DNA of 64,000 nucleotides from an uncultured Verrucomicrobia subdivision 3 bacterium (GTDB lineage: Bacteria > Verrucomicrobiota > Verrucomicrobiia > Limisphaerales > UBA11358), in contig CAINLR010000176.1 in the NCBI GenBank assembly GCA_903850425.1, positions 100,922 to 164,921 on the forward strand, read 5' to 3'. The notes beneath the pieces are model-generated. The model did not search any database and was not told the DNA's origin. It worked only from the letters and a program-made list of their open reading frames with translations. The position numbers were made by a program, and so were the translations under genes. Numbering within the stretch: position 1 is the stretch's first letter; each line of letters starts with the position of its first letter. Below, piece after piece: positions 32,610 through 64,000 of the stretch.

Positions 32610-32612
32610 ACA

Positions 32613-33809: not shown

Positions 33810-33814
33810 TTTCA

Positions 33815-34438: not shown

Positions 34439-34608
34439 GCGAAACCAAACACGGCCTCACCCGGTGCCCCAAGTGCAAAGAGTTTCACGATGCCACCTGG
34501 GGCTGGAAGCAATGCGAGCGGCAGCAATATTGGGTGCGCCGCAGCGAAGCCCGCTACCGCCGCTCCGCGCCGCGCTGTGCCACCGGGCCGGACGGCCGGC
34601 CGGTCTGA
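34435..34608 (+). CDS. Small zinc-ribbon-like protein (57 aa)
   Basis: This short gene is coupled to the previous one by an ATGA overlap at 34435. It encodes HGLTRCPKCKEFHDATWGWK with CPKC as half of a possible zinc site and two further Cys. The rest is Arg-rich, suggesting nucleic-acid binding. Confidence 0.5.
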   Translation: MSETKHGLTRCPKCKEFHDATWGWKQCERQQYWVRRSEARYRRSAPRCATGPDGRPV

Positions 34609-34627
34609 GTTTTTAATTTTGATTTTT

Positions 34628-34855
34628 ATGACCCGCCTCACTGAAAACTCGCAATGCGCCAAGATCCTCCGCCGGCTGCAACAATCGCCCGGCGAGATGG
34701 TGCCCATGCCTGAACTGGTGGCCGTGAGCGGCAGCTACAACATCCACAGCCGCGTGGATGAGCTGCGCAGCAAGCACGGCATTGAGATCCACAATGAAGT
34801 GGATCTGACCGTCAAGCCGCACATCAGCCGCTACTGGGTTCCCGCTGCGGCCTGA
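34628..34855 (+). CDS. Small helix-turn-helix protein (75 aa)
   Basis: NSQCAKILRRLQQSPGEMVP, then MPELVAVSGSYNIHSRVDEL and RSKHGIEIHNE, is a winged-helix pattern found in small proteins of Mu-like phages that bear a helix-turn-helix near the transposase gene. The wing is formed by HISRYWVP. It could regulate the early operon. Confidence 0.65.
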   Translation: MTRLTENSQCAKILRRLQQSPGEMVPMPELVAVSGSYNIHSRVDELRSKHGIEIHNEVDLTVKPHISRYWVPAAA

Positions 34856-34888
34856 ATTTTGAATTTTTAATTTTGAATTTTTAATTGA

Positions 34889-35152
34889 ATGCCCATCGCT
34901 GAATTCAACTTCGATTTTCTGACGCCTACGGGCATTTCCGAGATCCGCGAACTCTGCCAGCACGCCTATGCGGCCGGCTGGATGCAGCGCGGGCCGGTGA
35001 ACACTGAAGCCCAGATCAATGCCTGGCGGCGGGCCACCATTGGCAGCAAATATTTCGGGACCAAGCGCGACTCGGGAATCCCTTCCCCTCTCCCCCTCGG
35101 GGGAGAGGGCCAGGGTGAGGGGGCCAGCCGCATCAACACCACGACACCATGA
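34889..35152 (+). CDS. Small phage protein with repeat-derived C-terminus (87 aa)
   Basis: The first 60 residues (MPIAEFNFDFLTPTGISEIR; then ELCQHAYAAGWMQRG) look genuine. From about residue 65 the coding sequence consists of the palindromic CCCCTCTCCCCCTCGGGGGA element, giving PSPLPLGGEGQGEGA. Its natural end has probably been replaced by the inserted repeat. It overlaps the next gene by 4 bases. Confidence 0.5.
   Translation: MPIAEFNFDFLTPTGISEIRELCQHAYAAGWMQRGPVNTEAQINAWRRATIGSKYFGTKRDSGIPSPLPLGGEGQGEGASRINTTTP
35085..35121. repeat. Palindromic CCCTCTCC...GGAGAGGG repeat within a small gene
   Basis: CCCCTCTCCCCCTCGGGGGA continues with GAGGGCCAGGGTGAGGG. A close relative occurs at 37611-37643 near the end of the transposase gene. 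Repeats of this type are dispersed in many bacterial genomes. Confidence 0.8.
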
Positions 35153-35316
35153 AACTTGCAACCAAAATCAAAATGCATTGGATCCTCTGGACCAGCCTGG
35201 CCGCCGTGCTGCTGGTCTGCGCGCTGGGCATGTTCGCCGCGCTGATTGGCTGGGGTGCGCTCGAACAATTCTGCGCCGACGCCCTCAACGACAGCGACGC
35301 GGTTACTGACCACTGA
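35149..35316 (+). CDS. Small single-pass membrane protein (55 aa)
   Basis: One membrane segment (WILWTSLAAVLLVCALGMFA, about residues 11-30) lies between a basic N-terminus and an acidic C-terminus. It overlaps the preceding gene by ATGA. It could be an early membrane-active phage protein. No family is recognised. Confidence 0.5.
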   Translation: MKLATKIKMHWILWTSLAAVLLVCALGMFAALIGWGALEQFCADALNDSDAVTDH

Positions 35317-35324
35317 TCACTGGT

Positions 35325-35516
35325 ATGAGCGCCACCACCTCCAAAGTTTCCCCGGAACGCGCCGCCCTGGTGCAAAAGTTCAACCGCGAACTCGGCTGGT
35401 CTTTCCCGGAAGACATCGGCCTGACGGGGCTGGCGATCATGGCCACCTACGCCCGGTCGCGCCGACCGGACATTGCCGATGAAATCCAAGCCCTGGTCGC
35501 CAAGCTCTCCAAATAA
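35325..35516 (+). CDS. Small early phage protein (63 aa)
   Basis: The protein is helical (VSPERAALVQKFNRELGWSF; MATYARSRRPDIADEIQALV). It lies 7 bases upstream of the transposase gene. I do not recognise it. Confidence 0.5.
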   Translation: MSATTSKVSPERAALVQKFNRELGWSFPEDIGLTGLAIMATYARSRRPDIADEIQALVAKLSK

Positions 35517-35523
35517 TTATTTT

Positions 35524-37776: not shown

Positions 37777-37816
37777 CGAATTAACCCCACAACAACAACG
37801 AACCACGAGGACCAAC

Positions 37817-39007
37817 GTGAGCACCATTACCGAAAATCCCACTATTGCCCCAGCCACTGCCGAAGAACCCGTGCCGCAACTGAACAACGGCAACAACGTC
37901 CGCGCCAGTTGGAATCTGAGCCTAGACCACATCCGCGCCAACATCCAGACCTATGGCACCGAAGCCAAGGCCGCGCTGATCACCGCCTATCTCTGGTGCA
38001 TTGACCCGCGCCATCCGCTCGCCAAGCCGGACTTCGCCAAGCGCGTGGGCACGAGCGACAACACCCTCTACAAGCTCTACACCGGCAAATATAACCATCC
38101 CACCACGGGCGATAAAATGGGGCCGAGCGCGGAACTGGTGCGCAACATCGCCAAGTTTCTGGAGCTGGAAAAAGAACGGTTCACCAGCGGCGAAACGAAG
38201 CTGGTCATCACCCCCACGTTGAAGAAGATCGTCACCGCGTGCGATCTGGCGCGTGAAAGCCAGTCCATCGTGTTCGTGGTGGGCCCGTCGCACGTCGGCA
38301 AAACGTGGGCATTGGAGCGGCATTACACGCCGAACAATAATCATGGCCGAACCATCTACACGCGTCTGCAAGCCGCCAGCGGATTGGGCGGGATGATCCG
38401 CCGCATGGCCGAGAGCGTGGGCGTGAGCCCCAAGTCCAACACCGCTGATCTAGTGCGCCGCATCAAGGATGCCGTCACCGAAGACATGCTGTGGATCGTG
38501 GATGAAGTCCATTTGCTGAGCCACACTTACCGCGCCGGCAGTTTCCACAACTGCATGGAGGTCTTGCGCGAGATCCACGATGAAACCCGCATGGGCATGG
38601 TCCTGAGCTTCACCTTGCTGGACCAGGTGAAAGCCGCATCCCAAAAGGAGCTGCAACAGCTCTGGCGCCGGGGCGTGCATAAAGTGATGTTGCCGGCCAT
38701 GCCCACCAAGGGCGACATCGCGGCCATCCTCCAACACAACGGACTGGAATTTCCCGCCACGGATTTGAAGATCAGCGTCGCCTTCAAGGATGCCAGCAAC
38801 CGCAAGCAGGTGATTGAGGAAACGCCCTACGAAATCCTGCGCCAAGTGGCCAAGAATGAAGCGCTGCTGGCGATCACCGAACGCCTGCGCTACGCCCGCA
38901 AGCTGGCCAACAAGGCCGGCGAGAAACTGGACTGGAAACATTTCGTCACCGCCCACCTGCTGATCGCCAAACAGAGCGAGCCGGAAGGTGAGTGGGACAC
39001 CAAATAA
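37817..39007 (+). CDS. AAA ATPase, MuB-like transposition target protein (396 aa)
   Basis: MuB binds target DNA and stimulates MuA. Residues 25-115 contain a helix-turn-helix (PDFAKRVGTSDNTLYKLYTG). The AAA core has Walker A GPSHVGKT near residue 157 and Walker B MLWIVDEVH near residue 218, then ELQQLWRRGVHKVMLP. The C-terminal helical domain ends at HFVTAHLLIAKQSEPEGEWD. It starts at GTG 37817 after the repeated leader AGGACCAAC and follows the transposase by 40 bases. Confidence 0.85.
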   Translation: MSTITENPTIAPATAEEPVPQLNNGNNVRASWNLSLDHIRANIQTYGTEAKAALITAYLWCIDPRHPLAKPDFAKRVGTSDNTLYKLYTGKYNHPTTGDKMGPSAELVRNIAKFLELEKERFTSGETKLVITPTLKKIVTACDLARESQSIVFVVGPSHVGKTWALERHYTPNNNHGRTIYTRLQAASGLGGMIRRMAESVGVSPKSNTADLVRRIKDAVTEDMLWIVDEVHLLSHTYRAGSFHNCMEVLREIHDETRMGMVLSFTLLDQVKAASQKELQQLWRRGVHKVMLPAMPTKGDIAAILQHNGLEFPATDLKISVAFKDASNRKQVIEETPYEILRQVAKNEALLAITERLRYARKLANKAGEKLDWKHFVTAHLLIAKQSEPEGEWDTK

Positions 39008-39009
39008 CC

Positions 39010-39033
39010 GTAGGAGACGAGGTGACGAGTCTC
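39010..39033. repeat. Palindromic repeat half-unit after the MuB-like gene
   Basis: GTAGGAGACGAGGTGACGAG followed by TCTC is the same as the left half of the element at 10138. It lies in the gap after MuB. Confidence 0.7.
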
Positions 39034-39069
39034 AAATCAACCAACAGCAGAAACAACGAAAGGACCAAC

Positions 39070-39357
39070 ATGCCAAAATCACAAATTCACCCAAATCAGC
39101 CCGTCGTCATTGACCGTAATGGCGATGCTAGGTTCAAGGAAAACGCAATTGTTCGGATGCTTTTAGATCATGGCGGCTTCGATATGAACAAGCTCGCGCT
39201 GATGAGATTTGACCAGGAAGATCGCGAACAGTTCGCGCAGCTAATCGGCTATTCCGTCTCTGGATTTTCTGAACTCAGCTATGCCAGCACTCAAAAATGC
39301 GAGCAGGCATTTGATGATCTAAAAGCCCTTCAAACCACCAAAAAACCAACCAAATAG
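39070..39357 (+). CDS. Hypothetical early phage protein (95 aa)
   Basis: ATG 39070 is preceded by AGGACCAAC, the leader that also precedes the MuB-like gene and three others, so this start is preferred over a longer frame from 38992. The protein is mixed (AIVRMLLDHGGFDMNKLALM; RFDQEDREQFAQLIGYSVSG) and ends in a basic TTKKPTK tail. Its function is unknown. Confidence 0.55.
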   Translation: MPKSQIHPNQPVVIDRNGDARFKENAIVRMLLDHGGFDMNKLALMRFDQEDREQFAQLIGYSVSGFSELSYASTQKCEQAFDDLKALQTTKKPTK

Positions 39358-39364
39358 GACCAAT

Positions 39365-39658
39365 ATGGCAAAGATTTCAACGAAGGAACCGGCAGACCGC
39401 CTATTCAAAATGGAGCTTTCCCACGCGGAAGTGATTGCCCTGGTGAACTGGCACACGGCACAGGTCAAAAACACCACCAAGCGCTTTGGCGCTGCCGCGA
39501 TGGAAATGCAGAAATTCAACGTCATTCCGAATGGGAAAAATCTGAAATCCCTTCACACCCTGGCTAAAGAACAGATTGAAAGCCATGCCGCCCGAGGTCG
39601 GGAATTGATCGGGATCATCAAGATCCAAAACTGCAACCAACAGCAACCAACCAAATAG
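39365..39658 (+). CDS. Hypothetical early phage protein (97 aa)
   Basis: A helical protein (LFKMELSHAEVIALVNWHTA; GKNLKSLHTLAKEQIESHAA). The stop-leader-start segment CAACCAAATAGGACCAAYATG is nearly identical at both of its ends, so gene duplication of the junction or a shared translation signal is likely. Its function is unknown. Confidence 0.55.
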   Translation: MAKISTKEPADRLFKMELSHAEVIALVNWHTAQVKNTTKRFGAAAMEMQKFNVIPNGKNLKSLHTLAKEQIESHAARGRELIGIIKIQNCNQQQPTK

Positions 39659-39665
39659 GACCAAC

Positions 39666-39989
39666 ATGAAAGACAAGGAAGAATTGAAAGAAGACGCCGG
39701 CCTGGTGCGGGATCTCGTGGCCATGTGCGGCGTGGATTTCCCCACCAACTTCGAACGCGATCTGCGCGACGGCCTTTTCCGCAAGGCATTCACGCTGGTG
39801 CCCAAGATGGAAACGCATCACGTCCGCCGCATCAATGAAGCGCTGTGCGAGATGGATTTCCCCAGCGAAGTGGCGCTGGGCTTGCGCCAGGCCACGCTCA
39901 CCCGCCTCGCCCGCCATCACGATCTGAAAGCGTTCCGCAAAGTGGAAATGCCCAAGGTCAGCGTGCCGTCGAAAACCCAGCATAATTGA
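39666..39989 (+). CDS. Hypothetical early phage protein (107 aa)
   Basis: It begins MKDKEELKEDAGLVRDLVAM and has further helical sequence (HHVRRINEALCEMDFPSEVA; RQATLTRLARHHDLKAFRKV). It is preceded by the AGGACCAAC leader. The family was not recognised. Confidence 0.55.
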   Translation: MKDKEELKEDAGLVRDLVAMCGVDFPTNFERDLRDGLFRKAFTLVPKMETHHVRRINEALCEMDFPSEVALGLRQATLTRLARHHDLKAFRKVEMPKVSVPSKTQHN

Positions 39990-39993
39990 CCTT

Positions 39994-40428
39994 ATGCATA
40001 TCTCGAAAATCACCATTGGCCGGCTGTTCAACCTGGGCAACTACGAACACATCCGCTACGAGTTGACCGTGGACGTGCAGCCCGGCGAAGCCACGGCGGC
40101 CCTGCGCGGCACTGAGAATCTGTTGCGTGCGCTCAACCCCAAGCGCCCCAGCGGCGTGGCGACGGATTCGGAACTCGCCCAGGCGAAAAGCAAGATTGAG
40201 CTGATCCGCTCCATGACCGATGAAGCCGTCCGCCGCAATTACGGCATGTCCAAATACGGCTGCATTCGGAAATTTACCGCCGATCTGGCGGATGCCGTCT
40301 CCAAAACCGAGCACTGGAATGCCCGCCAACGCGCCGCGCGCAAACGGTTCGATGATCTCGGCGGTGCCAGCCAATACCGCGATGCCAAACTGGACTGGCA
40401 GGACTTTGATGAGGATTACTATGAATAA
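39994..40428 (+). CDS. Hypothetical early phage protein (144 aa)
   Basis: The N-terminal strand-rich part (HISKITIGRLFNLGNYEHIR; YELTVDVQPGEATAAL) resembles small single-stranded-DNA-binding or replication accessory proteins of phages. The rest is helical and basic (KYGCIRKFTADLADAVSKTE), ending in an acidic DEDYYE tail. It overlaps the next gene by 8 bases. Confidence 0.5.
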   Translation: MHISKITIGRLFNLGNYEHIRYELTVDVQPGEATAALRGTENLLRALNPKRPSGVATDSELAQAKSKIELIRSMTDEAVRRNYGMSKYGCIRKFTADLADAVSKTEHWNARQRAARKRFDDLGGASQYRDAKLDWQDFDEDYYE

Positions 40429-40921
40429 AATCCTGATCAAGAAAGTTAGCAAGCCGGGTGTGGATTCGGAGATGTTTCGTGCTTACAAAGACGACGGGGC
40501 AGAGCCATCAGCACGGACCACACTAAAGGTTTCGGCGAGTGCCACGGGCGGCACTGAGTTTGGTGCCATCCGCTGCGCCGCCAAGGCGTTCAAACGCTAC
40601 GTGGAACCCGGCGGCGATCTGAATGAGATCGAAACCCGCATCAAGCTGACTCCCGACCAGCATATTGACTATCTCTGGGTAGCGGAACTCTCGCCCAAAA
40701 GCCCGTGCGATCATACTCATCCGATGGCCAATCATTCATGGATCAGTGCTGCCATGGGCTTGCCAGATTCAGAACAAAGCGTGTTAGTCCATGCCCCGGA
40801 TGCCGATGAACCAGTCTGGCTCGGTTTTCACGATGGCGAATGCTGGCGCTGGGCCAGCGCTGAGCGCATCGAGACGGAAGTGACGCACTGGATGACCATC
40901 CCGGAACCGCCAACGGCATGA
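40421..40921 (+). CDS. DUF551-like phage protein (166 aa)
   Basis: The C-terminal 60 residues (WISAAMGLPDSEQSVLVHAP, then VWLGFHDGECWRWA and VTHWMTIPEPP) match the DUF551 pattern common in phages. The N-terminal part is unfamiliar. ATG 40421 overlaps the previous stop and is preferred over the longer frame. Confidence 0.65.
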   Translation: MNKILIKKVSKPGVDSEMFRAYKDDGAEPSARTTLKVSASATGGTEFGAIRCAAKAFKRYVEPGGDLNEIETRIKLTPDQHIDYLWVAELSPKSPCDHTHPMANHSWISAAMGLPDSEQSVLVHAPDADEPVWLGFHDGECWRWASAERIETEVTHWMTIPEPPTA

Positions 40922-41349
40922 AAGCTATCAGCCTCCATCAGCCCTGGGCATCGGCCGTGGCCTTTGGCGTGAAGACAATTGAGACGCGCGGCTGGCGGAC
41001 GAATCATTTAGGGCCAATCGCTATCCATGCTGCCAAACGCAAGACTCCAGGTCAGTGCGGCATCTACAAGTATTTGATAGCTACTCATGACGACATTCTG
41101 CTGGCGTTTAGCGAACAAATGATCGCATTCGAGTTTGACGATCTGCCCTTTGGCGCGGTCATCGCGACCGCGCAGATTCGTGCCGTTGGCAACATGAGTT
41201 TTCTAGATCTGGAAAAATTATCGGATGCTGAGCTTGCATTGGGAGATTATTCGGCCGGGCGCTTTTTCTGGAAATTAACGGACGTCGTTAAACTGCAAAA
41301 ACCGATCCCGGCCATCGGCCATCAGGGGTTTTTCAACGTGGAACTATGA
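40918..41349 (+). CDS. ASCH-domain protein (143 aa)
   Basis: The sequence AISLHQPWASAVAFGVKTIE, then TRGWRTNHLGPIAIHAAKR and PFGAVIATAQI, is a good match to ASCH domains, which have a PUA-like fold and are thought to bind RNA or modified nucleotides. It is coupled to the genes on both sides by ATGA overlaps. Its role in the phage is unknown. Confidence 0.75.
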   Translation: MKAISLHQPWASAVAFGVKTIETRGWRTNHLGPIAIHAAKRKTPGQCGIYKYLIATHDDILLAFSEQMIAFEFDDLPFGAVIATAQIRAVGNMSFLDLEKLSDAELALGDYSAGRFFWKLTDVVKLQKPIPAIGHQGFFNVEL

Positions 41350-41612
41350 AAACGATCATCAACATCGGCGGCCGGCAATGGATCGCCCCAGATGCCGCCA
41401 AGGCCGCGAAAGTGGCTGACCTGCTGAACGATTTCCAGCCGATCAACCGCGATTGGCGAAACTCCAAAAAGACCATCTACGTGATTGGCCGCGGCGCCGA
41501 TCACCAAGTGTCCATTCAGGGAATTCCCGAGGATATCCACCTGGTTAAAAACATCCAGGACGCGGTGAAATTGCGCGATGCGAGTGATGAGAAATCACTA
41601 GATACGATATGA
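41346..41612 (+). CDS. Hypothetical early phage protein (88 aa)
   Basis: A small alpha/beta protein (MKTIINIGGRQWIAPDAAKA; KKTIYVIGRGADHQVSIQGI). It overlaps both neighbours by 4 bases. It is one of a run of small proteins of unknown function that could include an anti-CRISPR. Confidence 0.5.
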   Translation: MKTIINIGGRQWIAPDAAKAAKVADLLNDFQPINRDWRNSKKTIYVIGRGADHQVSIQGIPEDIHLVKNIQDAVKLRDASDEKSLDTI

Positions 41613-41845
41613 GCTGCGAGCGCAAATGGAAATCCAAGCTGGCCATCAAAAATGGGGTGCAGACGTCTTCGTTCGTGGAGCAATATACCTTTGATCGGGC
41701 GGATGTCGTTGCCCATCTGGAGAAACTCAGCCGCCGGGCTGAATCGCTGGATCTAGGCAACAAACGCTTGAAAGAGCTGCTGGAGGCCGCGCTGAAGGGT
41801 TCCACGGCCAATAAAGTGACGATTACTAAGACTATCCTGTCATGA
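41609..41845 (+). CDS. Hypothetical early phage protein (78 aa)
   Basis: It starts MSCERKWKSKLAIKNGVQTS and contains a coiled-coil-like helix (RADVVAHLEKLSRRAESLDL; KRLKELLEAALKG). It is coupled to neighbours by ATGA overlaps. Its function is unknown. Confidence 0.5.
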   Translation: MSCERKWKSKLAIKNGVQTSSFVEQYTFDRADVVAHLEKLSRRAESLDLGNKRLKELLEAALKGSTANKVTITKTILS

Positions 41846-42318
41846 GCGTCGCCGAACTCATTGAAAACGTCCTGCGCGCCATCCTGGCAGCCTTCTATCG
41901 GGATCGCGCCGAGGATTTCTTCCGGGATCGCCACGCGCTCACCCGCGCCATTGCCCGTTACGGCGTGGAATGCCACTCGCGCGGATGGGAGTTCAGCACC
42001 CTCAGCATCCAGACGGAACTGCTCGCGCTGCTCAACCAGATCCGGAAACAGAAGGCGGACATCAAATATCTGCCGGTTTATCTGGAAGGCGCAGTAGATC
42101 GCCACATCCGCGTGCGGGCCGAGGAGCTGAGCGCCCATGCCAAGCTGGGGCGCAACATCGTCAAACGCACCGTGGGCGGCATCCAGCCGGCCGCTGTGCG
42201 CGAGGCCACGGCCGTGGAAACGCTGGCCGCGCTCTACAAAGCCCAGCGTCGCGTCAAAGCCCAGCGCAAATCGGCCCTGAAACCCATCGTCAAAGAAGCC
42301 CAGCAATCTCTGTTATGA
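41842..42318 (+). CDS. Hypothetical helical phage protein (158 aa)
   Basis: The protein is nearly all helical and basic (MSVAELIENVLRAILAAFYR; RIRKQKADIK-like; KSALKPIVKEAQQSLL). It overlaps neighbours by ATGA. No family is recognised. Confidence 0.5.
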   Translation: MSVAELIENVLRAILAAFYRDRAEDFFRDRHALTRAIARYGVECHSRGWEFSTLSIQTELLALLNQIRKQKADIKYLPVYLEGAVDRHIRVRAEELSAHAKLGRNIVKRTVGGIQPAAVREATAVETLAALYKAQRRVKAQRKSALKPIVKEAQQSLL

Positions 42319-42581
42319 ACCAATATCAGACCCCATTGCCCACGACGCGCCCGCCGATTGAGCGCTTTCATCAGATCGTGGCAATGCTCCGGGTTGGTTA
42401 CCCCAAGCCGATTCAGCACATTGCCGACGAATTGGAAGTGGACCGCAAAACGATCGAACGCGACGTGGAATTCATGGTAGATCGCCTGCTGCTGCCCATA
42501 GACCAGACCCGGTGTGGTCTGATCCTGACCCGCAAGCTGAAGATCTGCCCGATCTGTGTGAAGCAATTGAGTGATGAGTAA
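42315..42581 (+). CDS. Small helix-turn-helix protein (88 aa), possible Aca-like regulator
   Basis: ERFHQIVAMLRVGYPKPIQH followed by IADELEVDRKTIERDVEFMV is a DeoR/HTH_11-type helix-turn-helix, and a CPICVKQ end may bind metal. ATG 42315 overlaps the previous stop. Anti-CRISPR operons usually contain an HTH regulator (Aca) next to the inhibitor gene, which makes the small neighbours of this gene worth testing. That reading is inference. Confidence 0.65.
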   Translation: MNQYQTPLPTTRPPIERFHQIVAMLRVGYPKPIQHIADELEVDRKTIERDVEFMVDRLLLPIDQTRCGLILTRKLKICPICVKQLSDE

Positions 42582-42584
42582 TAT

Positions 42585-42797
42585 ATGAGCACTTTTACCA
42601 AACTCGCGATCGGGGCGGTCGAACTGGACGTGCTGCAGGCAGATGGCTGGCAGCTCGAAATGCAGGGTCCAGAAACCGCCTTGGGCTGGATGTGCGTGTT
42701 TATTCGTGGCCGCGAACGTAAAGCTGTTGTGCTTTCCAATGACATGGAGCGCTGGCCTGATCCCATCGTGCCAGATGGTCAAATGACTTTGATATGA
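42585..42797 (+). CDS. Hypothetical small phage protein (70 aa)
   Basis: A beta-rich protein (FTKLAIGAVELDVLQADGWQ; GWMCVFIRGRERKAVVLSND) of unknown family, immediately after the HTH gene and overlapping the GemA-like gene by ATGA. The size and position fit an anti-CRISPR candidate, but nothing in the sequence proves it. Confidence 0.5.
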   Translation: MSTFTKLAIGAVELDVLQADGWQLEMQGPETALGWMCVFIRGRERKAVVLSNDMERWPDPIVPDGQMTLI

Positions 42798-43303
42798 GCA
42801 GCCGCGCCCAGCAAATCCTGATCAAACGTGCCCAGCAGCAGGCCGCCTTGACCGATGCTGAATACCGCGATGCCATCGCCCTGGTGAGCGGCATGGAAGA
42901 TTGCCGTTCCAGCAAGGATCCCCGCCTCACCGATGGCCATGTGGACAAGCTGCTCAGCTACATCGAAGCCATCTACTGGATGAACGTGGATGCCGGCAGC
43001 TTGCAGCCATCATGCAAGCCCGGTGCAGTGTTCCGGGAACGCGGTTTCTGGGCCACTAAAAACCGCACCGGCAACACCAGCCGGGACCGCTACACCGAAG
43101 CCCACTTCACTCGCGAAGTCGCCGATCTGGAAGCCGAGCTGAACACGCTGGGCTTTGGCCTCAAATACCTGGCTGCCATCCAGAACAATATCCGCCCCTT
43201 CAGCCTGATCAAATACGCCGGCGCTCTCAAACGCACGCTTGCCAGCAAACGCAAAAAGGCCGATGCTGCCGCTACCGTTGACGACGACGCCGACCCCTAC
43301 TGA
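42794..43303 (+). CDS. GemA-like (Mu gp16, DUF1018) protein (169 aa)
   Basis: The N-terminus (QILIKRAQQQAALTDAEYRD, then AIALVSGMEDCRSSKDPRLT and DGHVDKLLSYIEAI) follows the pattern of the GemA family: a basic helix, D-x-x-Y-R-x-x-L, then a D-x-E/H-x-x-x-L helix. GemA proteins of Mu modulate host gene expression and DNA topology. The C-terminal part binds unknown partners. It is placed late in the early operon, as in Mu. Confidence 0.6.
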   Translation: MSSRAQQILIKRAQQQAALTDAEYRDAIALVSGMEDCRSSKDPRLTDGHVDKLLSYIEAIYWMNVDAGSLQPSCKPGAVFRERGFWATKNRTGNTSRDRYTEAHFTREVADLEAELNTLGFGLKYLAAIQNNIRPFSLIKYAGALKRTLASKRKKADAAATVDDDADPY

Positions 43304-43311
43304 GGACCAAT

Positions 43312-43617
43312 ATGCTTGAAATCGACAAAATGACTTTCACCACGAAGCCTGATGCGATTAACCCGCACGTGAAGAACGTAGTTGGTTCCATCCAATGGAA
43401 TGGCCTGCGCTCCGTGGACGTCACTGAGAACATCCCTCAATCGGCGGTTGAATGGGCATTAAAGCTACAGATCTGGGATGAAGTATATGGTGAACTGATT
43501 CCCCTGATTGGCCACCTCAAAGCCACCGCCCTGATCCATGCGCCATTCAGCGCGCGGCCGGAGTTGGATCGGGTGTTGAACAAGCTAAATGCTCTGCTGG
43601 AGTTCCCTCGGAAGTGA
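43312..43617 (+). CDS. Hypothetical phage protein (101 aa), last gene before the right end
   Basis: It starts at ATG 43312 after the AGGACCAAT leader. The protein is small and mixed (DKMTFTTKPDAINPHVKNVV; VEWALKLQIWDEVYGELIPL) and ends 114 bases from the prophage end. The family was not recognised. Confidence 0.5.
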   Translation: MLEIDKMTFTTKPDAINPHVKNVVGSIQWNGLRSVDVTENIPQSAVEWALKLQIWDEVYGELIPLIGHLKATALIHAPFSARPELDRVLNKLNALLEFPRK

Positions 43618-43699
43618 AGCCGTCCGTCCGTCTCTAATTCTGATGGTGTTTTCGCCAGTCCCTCTTCGCTAAGTTTGATTCCTGCCAAATCTGGACAAA

Positions 43700-43731
43700 C
43701 TGCAACTTAATGTACGGTCTGCAACTTTTCA
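43700..43731 (-). repeat. Right prophage end with two putative MuA-binding sites
   Basis: CTGCAACTT occurs at 43700-43708 and at 43719-43727, a spacing of 19 bases, and the element ends with TTTTCA at 43731. Read from the end inward this is TGAAAAGTTGCAG, differing from the left end at one base. Closely spaced sites at one end and widely spaced sites at the other are also seen in phage Mu. Confidence 0.7.
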
Positions 43732-44883
43732 GTTCTCAATACACAAAGTTCCATCCCGCCGCAGTTTCATCACGCGTCCGCGCCATTCCACCTTATTGCC
43801 GGCGAAGGCGCTGAACCAGAGGGCCACCTGCAAAAGATCTTTCACCGGCACCAGCCACGCAGGCGAAACCAGCTTGCGCTCCGGCGTAAACCGGCGTTGC
43901 AGATTTTGCGCGAGGCCAATGCGGATGAGCAGAAAAGCCAGCGCGGTCAACGGGGCACAAATAGTTAGGGTCGTTGCCAGCGAAACCAGCAGCCAAAGCA
44001 ACGGCCACAATGTGGCGTTGGCCAGGAGGCTGAAAAAATAGGGCAGGGGCTGGCAGACGCGGACGGTGCGCGCCCAGCGGAGTTGATGTTTCCAGACCTG
44101 CGACCAGTTCATCGGCGCATCCCAGCAGTCCACCACGACCGGGCAGAGCGCGATGTGGTGGCCGTTTTTCGCGATGCGATGACCAAGTTGGTAATCGTCG
44201 GCCAGGCTATCCGCGAGGGCTTGGAAGCCGCCGATCTCGCCCAGTGCCTTGCGGCGCACGAGAATCGCCGCACCCAGCGCAAAGTCGAGCGGCTTGAGCG
44301 TGGCCGATTGCAGCACCTGGCTCCAAAAATCGGCATTGATGGCAATCGCTTCCCAGCGCATTGCCGTCGAGGTCGGATTCGCGAGCCGGTAAAAGCAATT
44401 CACCAGCGCCGTCTTTTCATCGCGCAAAGGGGCAATGAAACTGGCAAGTAAATCCAGCGGCACGCGCACGTCGGCGTCGCTGATGAGAATCAAATCGTAG
44501 TGCGCGAGTTTTTCCAGTTGGGCGAGTTTGGCCGCTTTTGCATTGGTGCCGGTGAGATTATGGCAGACGACGAGTTGCGCGTTGGGATTTGGATTTTTGG
44601 CAAGCAGATCGTGGACGATGACACAAACCGGATCATTGGCATCCGCGACACCAAAAAGAATTTCAAGTGGCCCGGCGTAATTTTGTTTGAGCCAAGACTC
44701 CAGCGAGGCAGCGGTGGTTTCGTCGCAACCTTTGAGCGGCTTGAGGATGGAAATGGCGGGAGCGAAACCAGGCACGGCGATCGTTTGATGCAGCGGAAAC
44801 TTTCGCGCGGCGAGCCATTGCCAGCACGCAATCGCGACGCTCAACAGGGCCAACGCAAAAAAAATCAGGCGCAACAAATTCAC
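43729..44883 (-). CDS. Family 2/21 glycosyltransferase, HpnI-like (384 aa), 3' end altered by prophage
   Basis: A membrane glycosyltransferase like ceramide glucosyltransferases and HpnI, which add a sugar to a lipid or hopanoid carrier. The N-terminal membrane segment (LLRLIFFALALLSVAIACWQ) precedes the GT domain with PAISILKPLKG, ILISDADVRVP (DxD), LGAAILVRRKALGEIGGF and DDYQLGHRIAKNG, then QLRWARTVRV (the Q-x-x-R-W motif). Two or three C-terminal membrane segments follow. The start is GTG 44883. The stop TGA (43731-43729) is made of prophage end bases. Joining the flanks directly would add VETAVF before a stop. Whether the enzyme was affected is unknown. Confidence 0.78.
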   Translation of the reverse strand: MNLLRLIFFALALLSVAIACWQWLAARKFPLHQTIAVPGFAPAISILKPLKGCDETTAASLESWLKQNYAGPLEILFGVADANDPVCVIVHDLLAKNPNPNAQLVVCHNLTGTNAKAAKLAQLEKLAHYDLILISDADVRVPLDLLASFIAPLRDEKTALVNCFYRLANPTSTAMRWEAIAINADFWSQVLQSATLKPLDFALGAAILVRRKALGEIGGFQALADSLADDYQLGHRIAKNGHHIALCPVVVDCWDAPMNWSQVWKHQLRWARTVRVCQPLPYFFSLLANATLWPLLWLLVSLATTLTICAPLTALAFLLIRIGLAQNLQRRFTPERKLVSPAWLVPVKDLLQVALWFSAFAGNKVEWRGRVMKLRRDGTLCIEN

Positions 44884-56747: not shown

Positions 56748-57196
56748 AAAATAGCTGGCTGGTAGCCGGCTCAGTGCGTCAAGCGAACGCAGGTCGCACA
56801 GCGTCCGGTCGGTCGCCGCGCCAACGGATGCAATTCAGCCGCTTCGCGGTTTTTGAAATCCTCGATTCTCATTGCGCTCTGGTTGGTGCCACCGGACCAT
56901 GTCCCGCCGGCGCGATTGAACCGCGAAACAAACCGGCTTGCCTTTGACTTTGCAACGTGCGTAATATGTCCCCGCAACGACGCATGGCAGCAGGTTTGGA
57001 CCTTCTTAAACGATCTCCATTTGCCTTTTGCGGATAGTCTGTCGTTGCGGTCGGTTTTTGGGCTGCCTCGCGAGCCCTCAGTAGTGGTGTCCGTCACGTC
57101 TGCTTTCACCAAAAGGCGCTGCGGGCGTTCATGCACCGCGTGACCGGGTGATGGCTAAGTAGCGAAGTCAAGCAAACACCAATATTGGCAATGGTT
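56748..57196. other. Gene-free region between TM2 gene and tRNA-Phe half
   Basis: About 450 bases. Open frames on both strands (56771-57136 minus, 56853-57143 plus) overlap each other and lack family features. I see no RNA gene or clear repeat in it. Confidence 0.45.
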
Positions 57197-57237
<41 letters not shown>

Positions 57238-57747: not shown

Positions 57748-57777
57748 AAAATAAAAATGGGGCGTGCGAAACGCCCC
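57748..57777 (-). terminator. Terminator of the tracrRNA
   Basis: On the minus strand GGGGCGT-TTCGC-ACGCCCC forms a 7-bp stem followed by ATTTTTATTTT. Confidence 0.88.
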
Positions 57778-57880
57778 GTGCAAGAGTTGCGGTTAATGTC
57801 AGGCTCGTCTTGGGACTTACGCTCTCTAGCCGACCGATTCTTGCGAACCGCTGACCCGCAGGTTTTGATCTCGTGAAAAG
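57748..57880 (-). ncRNA. tracrRNA, divergent from cas9
   Basis: On the minus strand, CACGAGATCAAAAC (57875-57862) contains a 12-nt perfect complement to the start of the crRNA repeat, GTTTTGATCTCG. It is followed by about 85 nt with possible stems (GCGGTT with AACCGC, or GCAAGA with TCTTGC) and then a strong terminator. A TTGACA box lies on the minus strand at 57907-57902, about 16 bases before TATTTC, which would place the RNA start just before the anti-repeat. The remainder of the repeat, including its C9 run, has no visible partner, so the duplex would be unusually short. The ends are estimates. Confidence 0.78.
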
Positions 57881-57907
57881 AAATAACCCACTCAAAAAAT
57901 ATGTCAA
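57880..57907 (-). promoter_or_regulatory. Putative tracrRNA promoter overlapping the cas9 start
   Basis: TTGACA on the minus strand occupies 57907-57902 and so overlaps the cas9 start codon (57901-57903). A weak -10 (TATTTC or TTATTT) follows after 15-16 bases. Transcription of the RNA and translation of cas9 would therefore share sequence. Confidence 0.55.
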
Positions 57908-60900
57908 CTGTGGAATACAAACTGAATCCATTACCCAAGGCAGAGCCGCCTTACGATTGGAAGAACGATCCATTTTACACCGATGCGGTCGCTTTGGGGA
58001 TTGATATTGGACTCGAAGGAATAGGTGTATGGCTGCGTAAAGGCTGGAAGCCGATTTATACCCGGACATTTCTTTTTGAGACACCCGATGCCGCACCTTT
58101 GGAAGGTAGGCGTGGCTTGCGGGCGGGACGCCGATGCCGCCAAGCAGAACGGCGGCGCGAAGTGGCGCTGAAAAAATTCTGCGACGATTTTGGTCTGCCT
58201 TGGGTGGAGATTACAGACAAGGGACGCGATGACGGCCCGTTTCGTTTCCGGTGGATTGCCACGCGCAAGGATGTTGAAGGTTTGCGCGATGCCCGGGCTT
58301 TTTCGGCCTGCTTGCGGCATATCATACGGCATCGTGGCTATGACTGGCACGCGCCTGAAGATGGTGGTGATTATCCGTGGGGCGACGAAGCGAAAGCAAA
58401 GGACGCGATTGAATGGGCGAAGACGGCGTTTTGCCAGCAAGAACATGCTGACAAACTCCGCTACATCCTGACTGATTGCGGGTGGGCAGACAAAGAACGC
58501 CAAGCTTTTGAAACCGCGCTGAATCATGCTGTGGAAAAATACAAGACCCAGGGCATTGACGCCGTGCTGGCCGAACATTTTTCCCAACCCAAAAACAATC
58601 TCCGCTTCCCTGCCCGGCGTCATAACTTTCCACGCGAGATGGTTTGGGCGCATTTGACGGACATTGTTCAAAAGCACCCGCAATTTGTCGGCGGAGTGGA
58701 ACGCGTGAAAGAAGCGTTGAACCAACTCCACGAAATCATTAACGACCACCGCAAAGAACCTGGCGCATTGGCACTTCGCAAAGTCAATCGTTGCCCACTG
58801 GCGGAAATTTTATTCAATGGGTCTGCCCCAAAATGTGATTCCAGCAAGAACCGGCACATTCGCCGATTCAAACTTTTAGAATTCCTCGCTACGCGCACTT
58901 TTGTTCGCAAAGACGGCACGCGGATTCTGGCAAGCCGGGGGTTGTTCGGTTGGTTGCTGGACGACTTGCTTGAAGCGGACATTCAAGCGCTGGACTCAAA
59001 TGGAAAAATCCAGCGGGGGAAAATATCCATGCGGGAATTCAAAAAACAATTCGTCGCCAAGCATGATTCGACCGGCGAGACTGAACTGGCGGGCGACACG
59101 CAATCCCATAATGGCGAGTTTTTCATTCAGCTTACGGATTTGCTCTGGCCGAAAATGTCAGAGCTTGGCGGGCGCGCTTCACTTTGCGCGCGCAGCGCAG
59201 AGGCATTATTTGATTACGCCAAGAAAGAAGGATTTGATGCCGCTCAGATCGCTGTCCGCCTCAAAGACAAACGCTTTGAACGTGCCGGAAAGAAAATGAG
59301 CTTCTACGAAATTCGGCAGACGGCGGCGGCGGGTTTTGGAATTTACAAGCAGGTTGAATTTCTGCTTGGCCGGTGGAAGAAAAATGCCAAGCCCGGCGAC
59401 AAGCCCGCCGTGCCCGGCAAGCTCCGGCAGGTTTTTGCACAGTTGATCAAAGACGGAATCCTGCCGCCGGACAAAACTGCGCCGGATTATGTCGTCGTCG
59501 AAACTGTCGGCGATATTCCGCGCAACCGTGAACAGGCAAAAGAAATTCAAGAAGCGCAAGCTGCCCGTCGCAAATTCAAAGACAAGCTCCGTGAGCAATT
59601 CAAAGATTTTGAGCGCGGCAATTTAAGCTGGGAAGAAACCAACAAACGCTTGCTCCTTTACGACCAGCAGCGCGGCATTTGTCCTTATACCGGCGATTCA
59701 CTTGGCGAAAACCCACTGGCTCACGATTTGGAAATTGATCACGTTTTTCCACGGACGCGCGGCGGTATCAGCGAAATGGTCAACCTTGTGCTCACGCATC
59801 GAAAAACCAACGGCGAAATAAAGCGGGAGCAAACTCCATACGAGGCATTTGGCGGCAAAAATAATTCCCCGCAATGGCGGGAGATTCGCGACCGGGTTCT
59901 CAAAATGCAATGGAATGGACAGAAGCGTGAATTTTTCCTCCGTTCGGAAGACACGCCGCCGGATTGGGGAAACATGACGCGCGTGGCGCAACTTGCCCGG
60001 CAACTTCGCTTTGAAGTTGCCCGCTGGATGGATATTGCCGACGACGACGCGAAAGTGCGTCAATTCATCGGCACGCCCACGGGATACCAAACCAGCGTTT
60101 GCCGCGAGGCGTGGGGCGACAAGTTGCCCGAAGATTTCTGGCCGAAAAAAAATCGCGACAACTTGCGGCATCACATGTGGGACGCTGCGATTCTTTCCCA
60201 TATCCCGCCGGGCAAAGGTTTGAACCATGTCCGGTGTCACGGGATTTTTTGGAGCGAAACCAATCGGGGCAATATCAAATTGCTCGCGTTGCCGCAACTT
60301 GGGCCTGATTTGAAACAGTTCGAGAAAGAAACTGCCGGGTTATGCCTTGTGGCAAAGATTCAGCCGGCACATAACAAGCAATCGCGCTTCCAGCAAACCA
60401 TTTACAGTCCACCGGATGAGAATGGTCTGATGTGGGCGCGTGATCCGATTGAAAAACTCGCGGACAAACCCAAGCTGCTTGAACTGCTTCGTGACGCTGG
60501 CATTGATGAGAAGCAACTGCCTGCCAGCCGGTTCAATGAATGGCAGGAGAAGCGGCAGGCTCAATTTTTCACGCGGGAAGAAGCTTTGTCAGCGGTTGAA
60601 GCTCTGGCTCTGCCGACTGACAATCAAATCCTTGTCGCGGTTTTTGAGGAATGGTGGACTGACCGGCTCAAAGGCGATAAAAAGCGCGTCACTGATAAAT
60701 CTCTCCGCGCCCTGCTTGCCAAAGCCCGCGTGCCGAAAGCGCTGGTGACAGATCAGCAATTGGCGGGTGTCCTGATAAACCGCGGCAATCCCGGCCCGCT
60801 CACCCGCAAGGATGGCACAATTATCCGTGGCATCAGCGGGTCGGCCAGCACCATGACACCGATGGCTGTCATCCCTCATCGGAATCACGAAGGCGAAACC

Positions 60901-61689
60901 ATCGGCTTTAAACTCGCAACGGAAACATTCATTCGCGCGGAAATCTGGACGACGGAGAAGCGCGACAAAAATGGCGAAGTGGTCAAAGACGAAGATGGCA
61001 AACCACTGTTGGATTATCACCGCCGCCTTATCCCACATCCGCGCGGTTTGAAAAATCTTGGATTGCGGAAAATGCAATGCACAGGCGAGCGGCTGGCTTG
61101 GGAACGGGCTTTGACAGACGCGGAAATCATCGAGCTTGGCTTGAAAGAAAATGCCGAGGTTAAGCGGCTGCGGAAGAATTATGACAAGGCCGTCAAATTC
61201 CAAGAGAAAGAAATTTCAAAATCCAAAGTCGCTGAATCCGAACTAACTTTGGCCAACGCCAAGGCTATGCCGCTAAAACCGAAACCTCCGGTGATTTCCT
61301 TGCGAAAGATTTTTACGGGTCTGCCGCCGCTCGCCAAACGCTTGAAGGCTGCCGATGGGACAGATGTTAGCCGTTTTGCAAAAGGCGATTTAATGCTCGT
61401 TCCGCTGACGCAGGACGCAGAGATTTGCCAGCCGAAACAAGCTCCCTACCGCAAGTTCTGGTTTCGTGTAGCCGCACTAAAAACCAATGGTCAAATTCAA
61501 TTACTGATTGCGGAAAGAAAGCAAACCAAGCCGCTGACAGACCAAGAAATCAAAGACGGGGAAAAACTTACACCGGATCAGGATTGGCTGATAAAAGCTG
61601 GAGTGAAACAGCCGGGCGATGACGCAGTGATCGCTTTTTTGCTCCGGCACACGCACGGACATGATCAACCACCTCATTCTGCTAAGTGA
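57901..61689 (+). CDS. cas9: Cas9, type II-C (1262 aa)
   Basis: This is the RNA-guided DNA nuclease. RuvC-I is at GIDIGLEGIGVWL (D35), after a 30-residue N-terminal extension. The Arg-rich bridge helix is about residues 70-95 (GRRGLRAGRRCRQAERRREV). RuvC-II is DYVVVETVGD (E534), the HNH domain has LEIDHVFPRTRGG (D613, H614) with N628 and N637 at exactly the spacings of H840, N854 and N863 in the Streptococcus enzyme, and RuvC-III is LRHHMWDAAILSHIP (H758, D761). All nuclease residues are thus present. The C-terminal 450 residues include the wedge and PAM-interacting parts. There is no csn2 or cas4, so the locus is II-C. It overlaps cas1 by 29 bases. No clear Shine-Dalgarno precedes ATG 57901. 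Confidence 0.95.
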   Translation: MSTVEYKLNPLPKAEPPYDWKNDPFYTDAVALGIDIGLEGIGVWLRKGWKPIYTRTFLFETPDAAPLEGRRGLRAGRRCRQAERRREVALKKFCDDFGLPWVEITDKGRDDGPFRFRWIATRKDVEGLRDARAFSACLRHIIRHRGYDWHAPEDGGDYPWGDEAKAKDAIEWAKTAFCQQEHADKLRYILTDCGWADKERQAFETALNHAVEKYKTQGIDAVLAEHFSQPKNNLRFPARRHNFPREMVWAHLTDIVQKHPQFVGGVERVKEALNQLHEIINDHRKEPGALALRKVNRCPLAEILFNGSAPKCDSSKNRHIRRFKLLEFLATRTFVRKDGTRILASRGLFGWLLDDLLEADIQALDSNGKIQRGKISMREFKKQFVAKHDSTGETELAGDTQSHNGEFFIQLTDLLWPKMSELGGRASLCARSAEALFDYAKKEGFDAAQIAVRLKDKRFERAGKKMSFYEIRQTAAAGFGIYKQVEFLLGRWKKNAKPGDKPAVPGKLRQVFAQLIKDGILPPDKTAPDYVVVETVGDIPRNREQAKEIQEAQAARRKFKDKLREQFKDFERGNLSWEETNKRLLLYDQQRGICPYTGDSLGENPLAHDLEIDHVFPRTRGGISEMVNLVLTHRKTNGEIKREQTPYEAFGGKNNSPQWREIRDRVLKMQWNGQKREFFLRSEDTPPDWGNMTRVAQLARQLRFEVARWMDIADDDAKVRQFIGTPTGYQTSVCREAWGDKLPEDFWPKKNRDNLRHHMWDAAILSHIPPGKGLNHVRCHGIFWSETNRGNIKLLALPQLGPDLKQFEKETAGLCLVAKIQPAHNKQSRFQQTIYSPPDENGLMWARDPIEKLADKPKLLELLRDAGIDEKQLPASRFNEWQEKRQAQFFTREEALSAVEALALPTDNQILVAVFEEWWTDRLKGDKKRVTDKSLRALLAKARVPKALVTDQQLAGVLINRGNPGPLTRKDGTIIRGISGSASTMTPMAVIPHRNHEGETIGFKLATETFIRAEIWTTEKRDKNGEVVKDEDGKPLLDYHRRLIPHPRGLKNLGLRKMQCTGERLAWERALTDAEIIELGLKENAEVKRLRKNYDKAVKFQEKEISKSKVAESELTLANAKAMPLKPKPPVISLRKIFTGLPPLAKRLKAADGTDVSRFAKGDLMLVPLTQDAEICQPKQAPYRKFWFRVAALKTNGQIQLLIAERKQTKPLTDQEIKDGEKLTPDQDWLIKAGVKQPGDDAVIAFLLRHTHGHDQPPHSAK

Positions 61690-62557
61690 GGAGCAAGACT
61701 TGCACGTCACGGATGGCAAGCTGATTTCCGGCCATCGGAAAATTGCCATTGATACGCTGGGTAGCATCCAGTGTTTTTCCGCCGGTTGCCGCTGGTCACA
61801 GACGGCGCTGGAATTGTTGGTCAGTCAATGCCCGGTCATCATGTCGCGCTGGGACAAGCAGCAGAAGAAATGGAAAACTTTCAGCTTGGCACCGCGCGCG
61901 CGGTATGTGAACCCGACTGCACTTTGGAAACTCTGCCGTCTTTCGCCGCAACGCGCCACGCAGCTTGCCAGCGGTTTGTTGTGGACCAAGGTTTGCAACC
62001 AACATGAAATGCTCCGCAGCTTTGATCCGCGTCTGGCGGAGAAACCGCAACTGCGGGAAAATTCTTTCAACCGGATTTTGCGGTTGGAAGCCAGTTACGC
62101 CCGGTTTTTCTGGCCGCGCTATTTTGCTGCTTTGTCCACAGACTTGTTTGAACGGGAAAAACGCAAGGCCACGCATCCCATCAATGCCGCTCTCAATTAC
62201 GGCTACGGTTTTTTGTATCACGCACTGGAATGGCAATGTCTCGCCAGCGGGCTTGATCCCACCGTGGGTATCATCCACAAGCTGCGCCGCAGCCGGCCCA
62301 GTCTGGCCTGTGATTTGATTGAGCCGTTGCGTTGCACCGTGGAATTGACCGTGGTGCGGCATCTTGATGATTTGCAGGAACCCAGGCGGCTGGCTGGGCA
62401 TTTTGCCGAGTTGTTTGAAACGCCGTTTCATTATCGCGGCGGCAAATTCAGGCTGCGCTCCATCCTCCGGCTGATGGTGGAATCATTTGCGCGCGGCCTG
62501 GACGGCAAGGAACCTTTTCACCCCTTTCTTCTCCATGCTCGTGATGCTTGCCTATGA
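61661..62557 (+). CDS. cas1: Cas1 integrase (298 aa)
   Basis: Cas1 with Cas2 inserts new spacers. The metal-binding residues are visible: E143 in RILRLEASYARFFW, H206 in TVGIIHKLRRS, and D218/E221 in LACDLIEPLRC. The N-terminal beta-domain is complete. ATG 61661 lies inside the end of cas9 and is kept because the N-terminal strand MINHLILLSEEQDL matches Cas1 starts. The gene overlaps cas2 by 23 bases, so the three genes are translated as one run. Confidence 0.93.
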   Translation: MINHLILLSEEQDLHVTDGKLISGHRKIAIDTLGSIQCFSAGCRWSQTALELLVSQCPVIMSRWDKQQKKWKTFSLAPRARYVNPTALWKLCRLSPQRATQLASGLLWTKVCNQHEMLRSFDPRLAEKPQLRENSFNRILRLEASYARFFWPRYFAALSTDLFEREKRKATHPINAALNYGYGFLYHALEWQCLASGLDPTVGIIHKLRRSRPSLACDLIEPLRCTVELTVVRHLDDLQEPRRLAGHFAELFETPFHYRGGKFRLRSILRLMVESFARGLDGKEPFHPFLLHARDACL

Positions 62558-62831
62558 CACGCCGGAGCAACGGCACCAGAATTTTCTGCGCAAGGAATTC
62601 GAGCGCATGGGTGGCGTGCGGGTGCAATACAGCATTTATTTGTTCACCGGCGAGCCGCACGAGTGCGACCGTGTCATCCGCTACATGCAACGGGTTGCCA
62701 AGGGAATTCCGGGCGATGTGAGGTTGTTGCCGATGGAAGAATCCACTTGGGCGGCGCAAATCATCATTGCCGAGGTCACGGAAAACACTCAGAGAATCGC
62801 TGAATTACAGGAGTTTGTGAAAGTGTGGTAG
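62535..62831 (+). CDS. cas2: Cas2 (98 aa)
   Basis: A typical small ferredoxin-like Cas2: MLVMLAYDTPEQRHQNFLRK with Asp8 at the usual position, then VQYSIYLFTGEPHECDRVIR and DVRLLPMEESTW. ATG 62535 is chosen because it directly begins the first strand; the longer frame starts inside cas1. Cas2 bridges the Cas1 dimers during spacer insertion. The array begins 37 bases after the stop. Confidence 0.92.
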   Translation: MLVMLAYDTPEQRHQNFLRKEFERMGGVRVQYSIYLFTGEPHECDRVIRYMQRVAKGIPGDVRLLPMEESTWAAQIIIAEVTENTQRIAELQEFVKVW

Positions 62832-62835
62832 GCAA

Positions 62836-62858
62836 AACCCGCTCGTAAAGAGCGGGTT
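62836..62858 (-). terminator. Hairpin between cas2 and the array, possible terminator
   Basis: AACCCGCTC-GTAAA-GAGCGGGTT forms a 9-bp stem. On the minus strand it is followed by TTGCC after GGGTT, so the T run is short. It lies where a leftward array transcript would end. Confidence 0.5.
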
Positions 62859-62868
62859 CTGCGCCACG

Positions 62869-64000
62869 AATACCAAATTGCCCGGGGGGGGGCGAGATCA
62901 AAACAGGGCTTTGGACCAGAACCGGTCGCAATGGCTAATACCAAATTGCCCGGGGGGGGGCGAGATCAAAACGAATATGTGTTGGACGCCCAGAGGGTGG
63001 TGAAAATACCAAATTGCCCGGGGGGGGGCGAGATCAAAACCAAGCTAGTTGCGCGTGTTATTCGCCCCCGGTAATACCAAATTGCCCGGGGGGGGGCGAG
63101 ATCAAAACATGGATCCAGAACAAGCTTTTCTGCGCACGCTAATACCAAATTGCCCGGGGGGGGGCGAGATCAAAACAGGCGACTCGCTTCGAGTTGGCGG
63201 CGGCAATGAATACCAAATTGCCCGGGGGGGGGCGAGATCAAAACTGATACGCTGCGTAGGGAATGTTCGTGCCGATAATACCAAATTGCCCGGGGGGGGG
63301 CGAGATCAAAACATCCGGTGATCACGGACTGCCACAACTATTCCAATACCAAATTGCCCGGGGGGGGGCGAGATCAAAACAAGCTCCCGGAGTGGATGCA
63401 GGAGGGAACTCCAATACCAAATTGCCCGGGGGGGGGCGAGATCAAAACTGACCGGGGTGGCCACGCTGGCTCGACCGAGCAATACCAAATTGCCCGGGGG
63501 GGGGCGAGATCAAAACTCAATCAGCTTCAGCGGGACGGGCTTGGTTTTAATACCAAATTGCCCGGGGGGGGGCGAGATCAAAACACCGCTCCACGGTCGT
63601 GTCGGCGAAGCGGAACAATACCAAATTGCCCGGGGGGGGCGAGATCAAAACTGGCCAGCGTGATGGTGTAGGGGTAGCCCGTCAATACCAAATTGCCCGG
63701 GGGGGGGCGAGATCAAAACGGTGAAGTGCTGACCAACGAGGACCGTGCCCGAATACCAAATTGCCCGGGGGGGGGCGAGATCAAAACGTGCTGCTGCACC
63801 ATGCGGCGGGCTTTGGCGCAATACCAAATTGCCCGGGGGGGGGCGAGATCAAAACAGCTGACAACCTGGATACCGCGAAGCGATTAAAATACCAAATTGC
63901 CCGGGGGGGGGCGAGATCAAAACCTACTCGCCATGAGCGGCACCGTGGCCACCTAAATACCAAATTGCCCGGGGGGGGGCGAGATCAAAACCGGATGCAC
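62869..64000 (-). CRISPR. CRISPR array, 17 repeats of 36 bp, 16 complete 32-bp spacers, continues past window
   Basis: The repeat begins AATACCAAATTGCCC, has nine G and ends CGAGATCAAAAC. Starts are 62869, 62937, 63005, 63073, 63141, 63209, 63277, 63345, 63413, 63481, 63549, 63617, 63684, 63752, 63820, 63888 and 63956. All spacers between are exactly 32 bp. The repeat at 63617 has eight G and is 35 bp. Complementarity with the tracrRNA shows the guide orientation is the minus strand, where the repeat starts GTTTTGATCTCG, so transcription is leftward toward cas2 and the leader lies beyond 64000. Spacer 7 matches the resident prophage exactly; spacers 4 and 6 match it closely. I found no match by eye for the others. 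Confidence 0.98.

Follow-up and report, generated by a model that had tools for sequence, protein, structure and literature searches.

The CRISPR system of Pseudomonas aeruginosa PA14 that matches the phage DMS3 is reportedly of type I-F. In an excerpt of the published account, an imperfect spacer match in PA14 lysogens of the Mu-like DMS3 selects for a changed spacer, for changed cas genes or for loss of the locus (PMC11406979). The locus described here is similar in that one of its spacers matches a Mu-like transposable prophage of the same assembled genome. However, the match here is exact, the nuclease is Cas9, and the spacer, cas genes and locus, which are mutated or deleted in the DMS3 lysogens of that excerpt, are all intact. 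Self-targeting genomes have also served to find Cas9 inhibitors, as an excerpt of PMC6990116 describes. Our genome shares with them an intact Cas9 and an exact spacer against its own prophage, but it yielded no acr or aca homolog in two libraries (NCBIfam and Pfam) and its host is uncultured.

The system resembles type II-C in that cas9, cas1 and cas2 are its only genes, the array lies beside cas2, the tracrRNA gene precedes cas9 and the repeats are 36 nt long. It differs from type II-C in its 32-nt spacers, in a tracrRNA that begins with a 12-nt anti-repeat, in its predicted location on a tRNA-Phe island, and in a Cas9 that aligns to solved Cas9s mainly over RuvC-II, HNH and RuvC-III. Cas9d (type II-D) was the best NCBIfam model by score (159.5 bits), yet this score lies under the cut-off of 375, and the 1262 aa of the Cas9 studied here stand against 747 aa for the Cas9d in an excerpt of PMC11706934. 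Judged by titles and the first lines of abstracts, none of the papers listed from the searched library describes a system of this kind.

The window analysed in this study comes from a bacterium that probably belongs to the Verrucomicrobiota and forms the final 64 kb of contig C176, which ends within the CRISPR array. The self-match involves the following elements.

63313..63344, minus (crRNA strand): spacer 7, exact match to 22381-22412, anti-repeat orientation
22381..22412, plus: spacer 7 protospacer, with the PAM-side flank TGCTTTTG at 22413-22420
21907..22635, minus: prohead protease gene holding the spacer 7 target (Pfam Peptidase_S78, E 2.7e-07)

Comparison of the window with itself showed that spacer 7 and its target agree in 32 of 32 bases on opposite strands, and the expected number of such matches was 0.00 in 100 dinucleotide shuffles. 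When up to 3 mismatches were allowed, only the spacer itself and 22381-22412 were found in the whole genome (6,888,713 bases in 197 contigs). The target covers the protease codons PVITDCHNYS, including H82 as counted on the translation. The original prediction, that spacer 7 equals the prophage over all 32 bases and targets the catalytic-His region of a prohead protease, thus held in both parts. The prophage lies about 14 kb from the Cas9 system, and the spacer 7 target about 41 kb from the array.

The genome has what marks a self-targeting lysogen, an exact protospacer together with intact cas genes, and a working Cas9 system with such a match is expected to cut its own chromosome. An exact match with spacer, cas genes and locus all intact points to a block of Cas9, a silent system, a flank that is not a PAM, or a mixture of cells. 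Our first choice, with a probability of roughly 0.35, is that a prophage-borne block of Cas9, a predicted anti-CRISPR, lets the cell survive.

The prophage and its neighbours are arranged as follows.

5976-6051: tRNA-Val, left neighbour of the prophage
6066..43743, no strand assigned: Mu-like prophage of about 37.7 kb between tRNA-Val and hpnI, a site that is empty in same-genus loci
35473..37776, plus: phage transposase, MuA-like (phrog_310, E 4.7e-27)
37817..39007, plus: DNA transposition protein, MuB-like ATPase (phrog_296, E 3e-26; Pfam AAA_22)
43729-44883: hpnI, right neighbour of the prophage

Judged by its genes, this insert is a Mu-like transposable prophage. It also encodes a terminase, a portal protein with a Mu-F domain, the Peptidase_S78 protease, a Phage_capsid protein and a tape measure protein; a Pfam scan of 35473-37776 gave no transposase domain. 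ARAGORN called a tRNA-Ala at 37417-37494 within the transposase gene, which is probably false. hpnI was detected at E 1e-80 or better in 32 of 49 genomes of the genus, this one included. ARAGORN was run on 14 of 30 hpnI loci and found tRNA-Val in 11 (none in L191, L192 and L197); it lay within about 30 bp of the hpnI end in 8 of these 11 and about 110 to 430 bp away in L187, L194 and L199. Because tRNA-Val and hpnI stand side by side in these same-genus loci, the empty site is known and the prophage can be placed at about 6066-43743. The tetranucleotide CAAA flanks the insert on both sides. To its right, the order hpnI, transporter-like frame, response regulator, DUF4912 and GH57 is kept in 4 of 8 same-genus stretches (L239, L241, L243 and L246) and in part in the other four, where all labels other than hpnI are our own reading. 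To the left beyond tRNA-Val, three frames were compared with the 8 stretches and gave no match. The earlier claim of a real and integrated prophage is borne out by this Mu-like gene content and by the adjacency of tRNA-Val and hpnI in same-genus genomes. The region 29580-32072 of the prophage holds cargo genes, by eye for TPR-like and secreted-looking proteins with no relatives in the compared phage loci and for a lipoprotein-like frame with a weak relative in L015 and L022. The prophage frames 33489-33809, 38992-39357, 39365-39658, 39994-40428, 41346-41612 and 43312-43617 likewise lack relatives in these phage loci and are the first candidates for the predicted inhibitor.

The Cas9 system occupies the right end of the window.

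57755..57873, minus: predicted tracrRNA, with a 12-nt anti-repeat at 57862-57873, hairpins and a terminator
57901..61689, plus: cas9, 1262 aa, RuvC and HNH motifs present
61661..62557, plus: cas1 (Pfam PF01867)
62487..62831, plus: cas2 (Pfam PF09827), given as the open frame, whose true start may be further in
62832..62868, plus: 37-nt stretch from cas2 to the first repeat, with a hairpin seen by eye
62869..63991, minus: part of the array in the window, 17 repeats, each of 36 nt apart from one of 35 nt, and 16 whole spacers

The reading frames of cas9, cas1 and cas2 are all intact. The nuclease residues of Cas9 were located by motif (D35, E534, D613/H614 and H757/D761), and Pfam HNH_4 matched. 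Membership in type II is indicated by the cas_Csn1 model (134 bits, cut-off 100), and the gene content, cas9, cas1 and cas2 without csn2 or cas4, is that of subtype II-C (by family scan in the window, by reading of frames in the related loci L222 and L223). Cas1 scored above the cut-off of the general cas1 model and below that of the type II model cas1_NMENI (71.6 bits, cut-off 120). The best solved Cas9 (8ja0) aligned over RuvC-II, HNH and RuvC-III only. Among the candidates sharing most words, which were those scored, the protein collection held 57 Cas9 relatives, 24 of them at 55% identity or more. A relative passing E 1e-60 is encoded by 7 of the 320 genomes of the order that were searched, all from different genera, and within its own genus only this genome had this Cas9 at that threshold. 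Comparison with the cas9 of L011 gave a dN/dS of about 0.08 over 928 codons, with synonymous sites near saturation, a sign of strong purifying selection on cas9.

The tracrRNA lies on the minus strand immediately before cas9. Its 12-nt anti-repeat, CGAGATCAAAAC, is identical in the window, L011, L012 and L222; the stretches that follow it are similar as well, with a paired change in one stem noted by eye. The repeat start that pairs with it, GTTTTGATCTCG, was present in the arrays of the window, L222 and L223, so that both sides of the pairing were seen in the window and L222. Since the anti-repeat and the matching repeat start are conserved, the short guide duplex is the design of the clade rather than a defect. 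An impaired guide duplex, which the original prediction had offered as one way to survive, was ruled out on this ground; its account of complete Cas9 nuclease residues and of Cas1, Cas2 and a tracrRNA gene agrees with the motifs and families found here. The same genome carries a second Cas9 system on contig C28 (L004, 7336-9028 and 9004-12357), whose 7 repeats enclose 6 spacers of 29-30 nt; these 6 spacers gave no match below 7 mismatches in the window prophage.

The array continues from C176 into contig C81 through a 16-base overlap, with 7 further repeats there, and the joined array has 24 repeats and 23 spacers, every spacer being 32 nt. The earlier reading of the array therefore covered only part of it, and missed both the continuation on C81 and two imperfect matches to the prophage.

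23636..23667, plus: target of spacer 4 (63109-63140) in the portal gene, 4 mismatches, flank TGGATTGT
16193..16224, minus: target of spacer 6 (63245-63276) in the neck/tail-completion gene, 5 mismatches, flank CGAATTTG

When the 23 spacers were compared with the window up to position 62860 at no more than 9 mismatches, only spacers 7 (0 mismatches), 4 (4) and 6 (5) matched, all three in the prophage, and 40 sets of shuffled spacers gave nothing below 8 mismatches. Three of the 4 mismatches of spacer 4 are synonymous and one changes a residue of the portal protein, (M/T)DPEQAFLRT; 4 of the 5 of spacer 6 are synonymous and one changes a residue of the neck protein, IGTN(I/V)PYAAY. Because these matches lie in the prophage and differ from it mostly at synonymous sites, we infer that the array is likely a record of repeated meetings with the resident phage lineage. 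Each of the two spacers has two mismatches near the PAM side (positions 2 and 9 in spacer 4; 6 and 9 in spacer 6), which would be expected to weaken cutting. At the divergence of spacers 4 and 6 (9 of 64 positions), an exact 32-mer has a probability of about 0.008. Such a match is improbable at that distance, and spacer 7 therefore likely derives from the resident phage itself or from a very near relative of it.

Searches for further targets, some of them meant to reveal the PAM, were made at several scales. The whole 6.9-Mb genome was searched with spacer 7, and the other 22 spacers were applied to a smaller part. Other transposase loci on C129 (8,488 of 8,488 bases), C90 (11,911 of 15,910) and C130 (20,000 of 29,671) held no target at 7 mismatches or fewer, and a search for further target prophages found one PF04860 portal gene in the genome. 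In 112 of 121 loci (1.45 Mb, some overlapping and some bacterial), the spacers met 9 sites with 5 to 8 mismatches. The terminase of a different subgroup of these Mu-like phages is matched by spacer 1 with at least 3 mismatches. A protein-level scan gave 77 matches against 5 with reversed spacers, and most of the 77 are this terminase site. The viral collection contained no exact copy (0 matches) of 20-21-nt seeds taken from spacers 4, 6, 1 and 7, and the 5 spacers of L222 and L223 had no target at 8 mismatches or fewer beyond their own arrays.

The stretch from cas2 to the first repeat measures 37 nt in the window, L222 and L223, three diverged loci, and is perhaps an anchor for spacer integration. 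Repeats with a changed G-run are commoner on C81 (4 of 7) than on C176 (1 of 17; Fisher p 0.014). The constant stretch at the cas2 end and the more frequent changes at the far end both agree with spacer addition at the cas2 end. In type II-C systems, the array acquires its new spacers at the repeat that is transcribed last, according to an excerpt of PMC12080349. If these rules hold here, spacers 1 to 7 on the cas2 side, which include 1, 4, 6 and 7, would be the newest.

Two further features suggest that the system itself is mobile.

56919..57237, plus: direct repeat of 319 bp (80%) of the C81 region with tRNA-Phe and the 5' end of the integrase
57197..57237, plus: 5' piece of tRNA-Phe, 41 nt, 41/41 identical to the intact tRNA-Phe on C81, predicted left end of the island

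On C81, an intact tRNA-Phe adjoins a tyrosine integrase (PF00589), and a DUF5906 protein with a Toprim match under its cut-off lies between integrase and array. Across the 16-base join of C176 and C81, an integrase beside an intact tRNA thus faces a tRNA piece at the opposite end, as in an integrative element. Cas9, Cas1, Cas2 and the array are accordingly predicted to lie on a mobile island integrated at tRNA-Phe, whose size of about 15 kb rests on the same join. The original prediction did not include this island. The 319-bp repeat, with its partial integrase and tRNA, hints that an earlier element had entered this site and that integration was in tandem. On C81, the array is directly followed (L005 reverse complement, from 482) by the apparent C-terminal part of a frame without a start, presumably of a trypsin-like protease; this may be a real truncation or an assembly join.

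In the reading that we prefer, the Cas9 island would have met the phage lineage repeatedly and stored spacers, and spacer 7 would have been taken from the resident phage itself or from a very near relative. The flank TGCTTTTG would work as a PAM, prophage and spacer 7 would share the same cells, and Cas9 would be expressed; a product of the prophage, the predicted anti-CRISPR, would then stop Cas9 from cutting. No anti-CRISPR or aca family was found in 15 distinct small prophage frames (10 run against NCBIfam and 10 against Pfam, 5 in both), where RHH and weak HTH families were the only matches. Single-sequence folding of two lineage-specific prophage proteins produced only low-confidence models (pLDDT 62.7 and 48.1). 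An RNA anti-CRISPR in the form of a repeat decoy, an idea taken from an excerpt of PMC11656645, was also considered and rejected. No CRISPR-repeat decoy was found in the prophage, and the only full 12-nt copy of the pairing part of the repeat beyond the array is that of the tracrRNA.

The best of the competing explanations, though itself unlikely, is that the sequence is a consensus of different cells, in which lysogens that lack spacer 7 or an active Cas9 and prophage-free carriers of the spacer were joined by assembly. The genome is in 197 contigs with 3.7% contamination, the assembly looks like one made from short reads, and short reads cannot link sites 41 kb apart. C176 breaks inside the 1.6-kb array at the overlap to C81; the L223 array also reaches a contig end and the L222 array adjoins one. 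However, one unbroken contig spans both prophage junctions and spacer 7, and this contig should have been interrupted if alleles with an empty site or without the spacer were frequent, provided that assemblers behave as we suppose. In addition, if each allele is present in more than half of the cells, some cells hold both.

Less probable than such a mixture is an escape of the phage by its flank, in which TGCTTTTG would be no PAM for this Cas9 and the exact match would be harmless. Cas9d and Cas9c2 enzymes use NGG, NRC or NAR (PMC9755519, from an excerpt). Three sister phages (L015, L016 and L046), which have 5 to 9 mismatches at the spacer 7 site, read TGG where the resident phage reads TGC, an Ala against a Ser codon by our own reading; TGG also stands beside the spacer 4 target, and a fourth sister phage, L013, reads TCT. 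Under an NGG rule, the resident TGC would thus be an escape. On the other hand, TGC would fit NRC, and NGG does not explain the CGA beside the spacer 6 site, since its Glu codon lies in the motif YHEFG, which we take to be conserved (one site was read here). The flanks of the three prophage targets (TGGATTGT, CGAATTTG and TGCTTTTG) share G2, T5 and T6, that is NGNNTT. Three shared positions occur in 1.5% of random triples (chance about 0.015), the motif having been chosen after the flanks were seen. This common flank weakly favours a valid PAM at the exact target over a lost one. NGNNTT fits none of the listed spacer 1 sites, of which the nearest relatives (3 mismatches; L154, L156 and L160) are flanked by CCGCCA.

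It is more doubtful still that the Cas9 operon or the array is silent, or strongly regulated, in lysogens so that no cutting takes place. The island is a predicted recent acquisition, and among the 320 genomes of the order no other member of the genus has this Cas9 at E 1e-60 or better, so its expression here cannot be taken for granted. Against silence, the TTGACA box of the tracrRNA promoter is kept in L011 and L012, cas9 is under purifying selection, and recent spacers would imply past activity. A chimeric contig, with the array end joined to the wrong chromosome, would fit the fall in G+C from about 0.59 to 0.53 across 50-58 kb and the absence of the genes after GH57 (kinase, sigma factor and TM2 protein) from same-genus stretches, but it is very improbable because the island explains the change in G+C, with the tRNA-Phe piece at 57197 and the tRNA-Phe and integrase of C81 fitting as the two ends of one insertion.

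Joined with the predicted island, the preferred reading of a prophage-borne block leads to a broader and tentative picture of two mobile elements at war. An integrative island, whose Cas9 belongs to an uncharacterised clade and naturally uses a guide duplex of 12 bases, would have recorded a Mu-like lineage three times, and the resident phage may carry an unrecognised inhibitor of this clade that allows it to persist under an exact guide. Genomes in which an intact Cas9 faces an exact self-match are a productive source of new Cas9 inhibitors. The divergent Cas9 clade, its very short natural guide duplex and the small, defined set of phage genes make this Cas9 and a matching inhibitor testable. 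If the tRNA-Phe island is confirmed, the self-match would represent a conflict between mobile elements rather than autoimmunity of the host.
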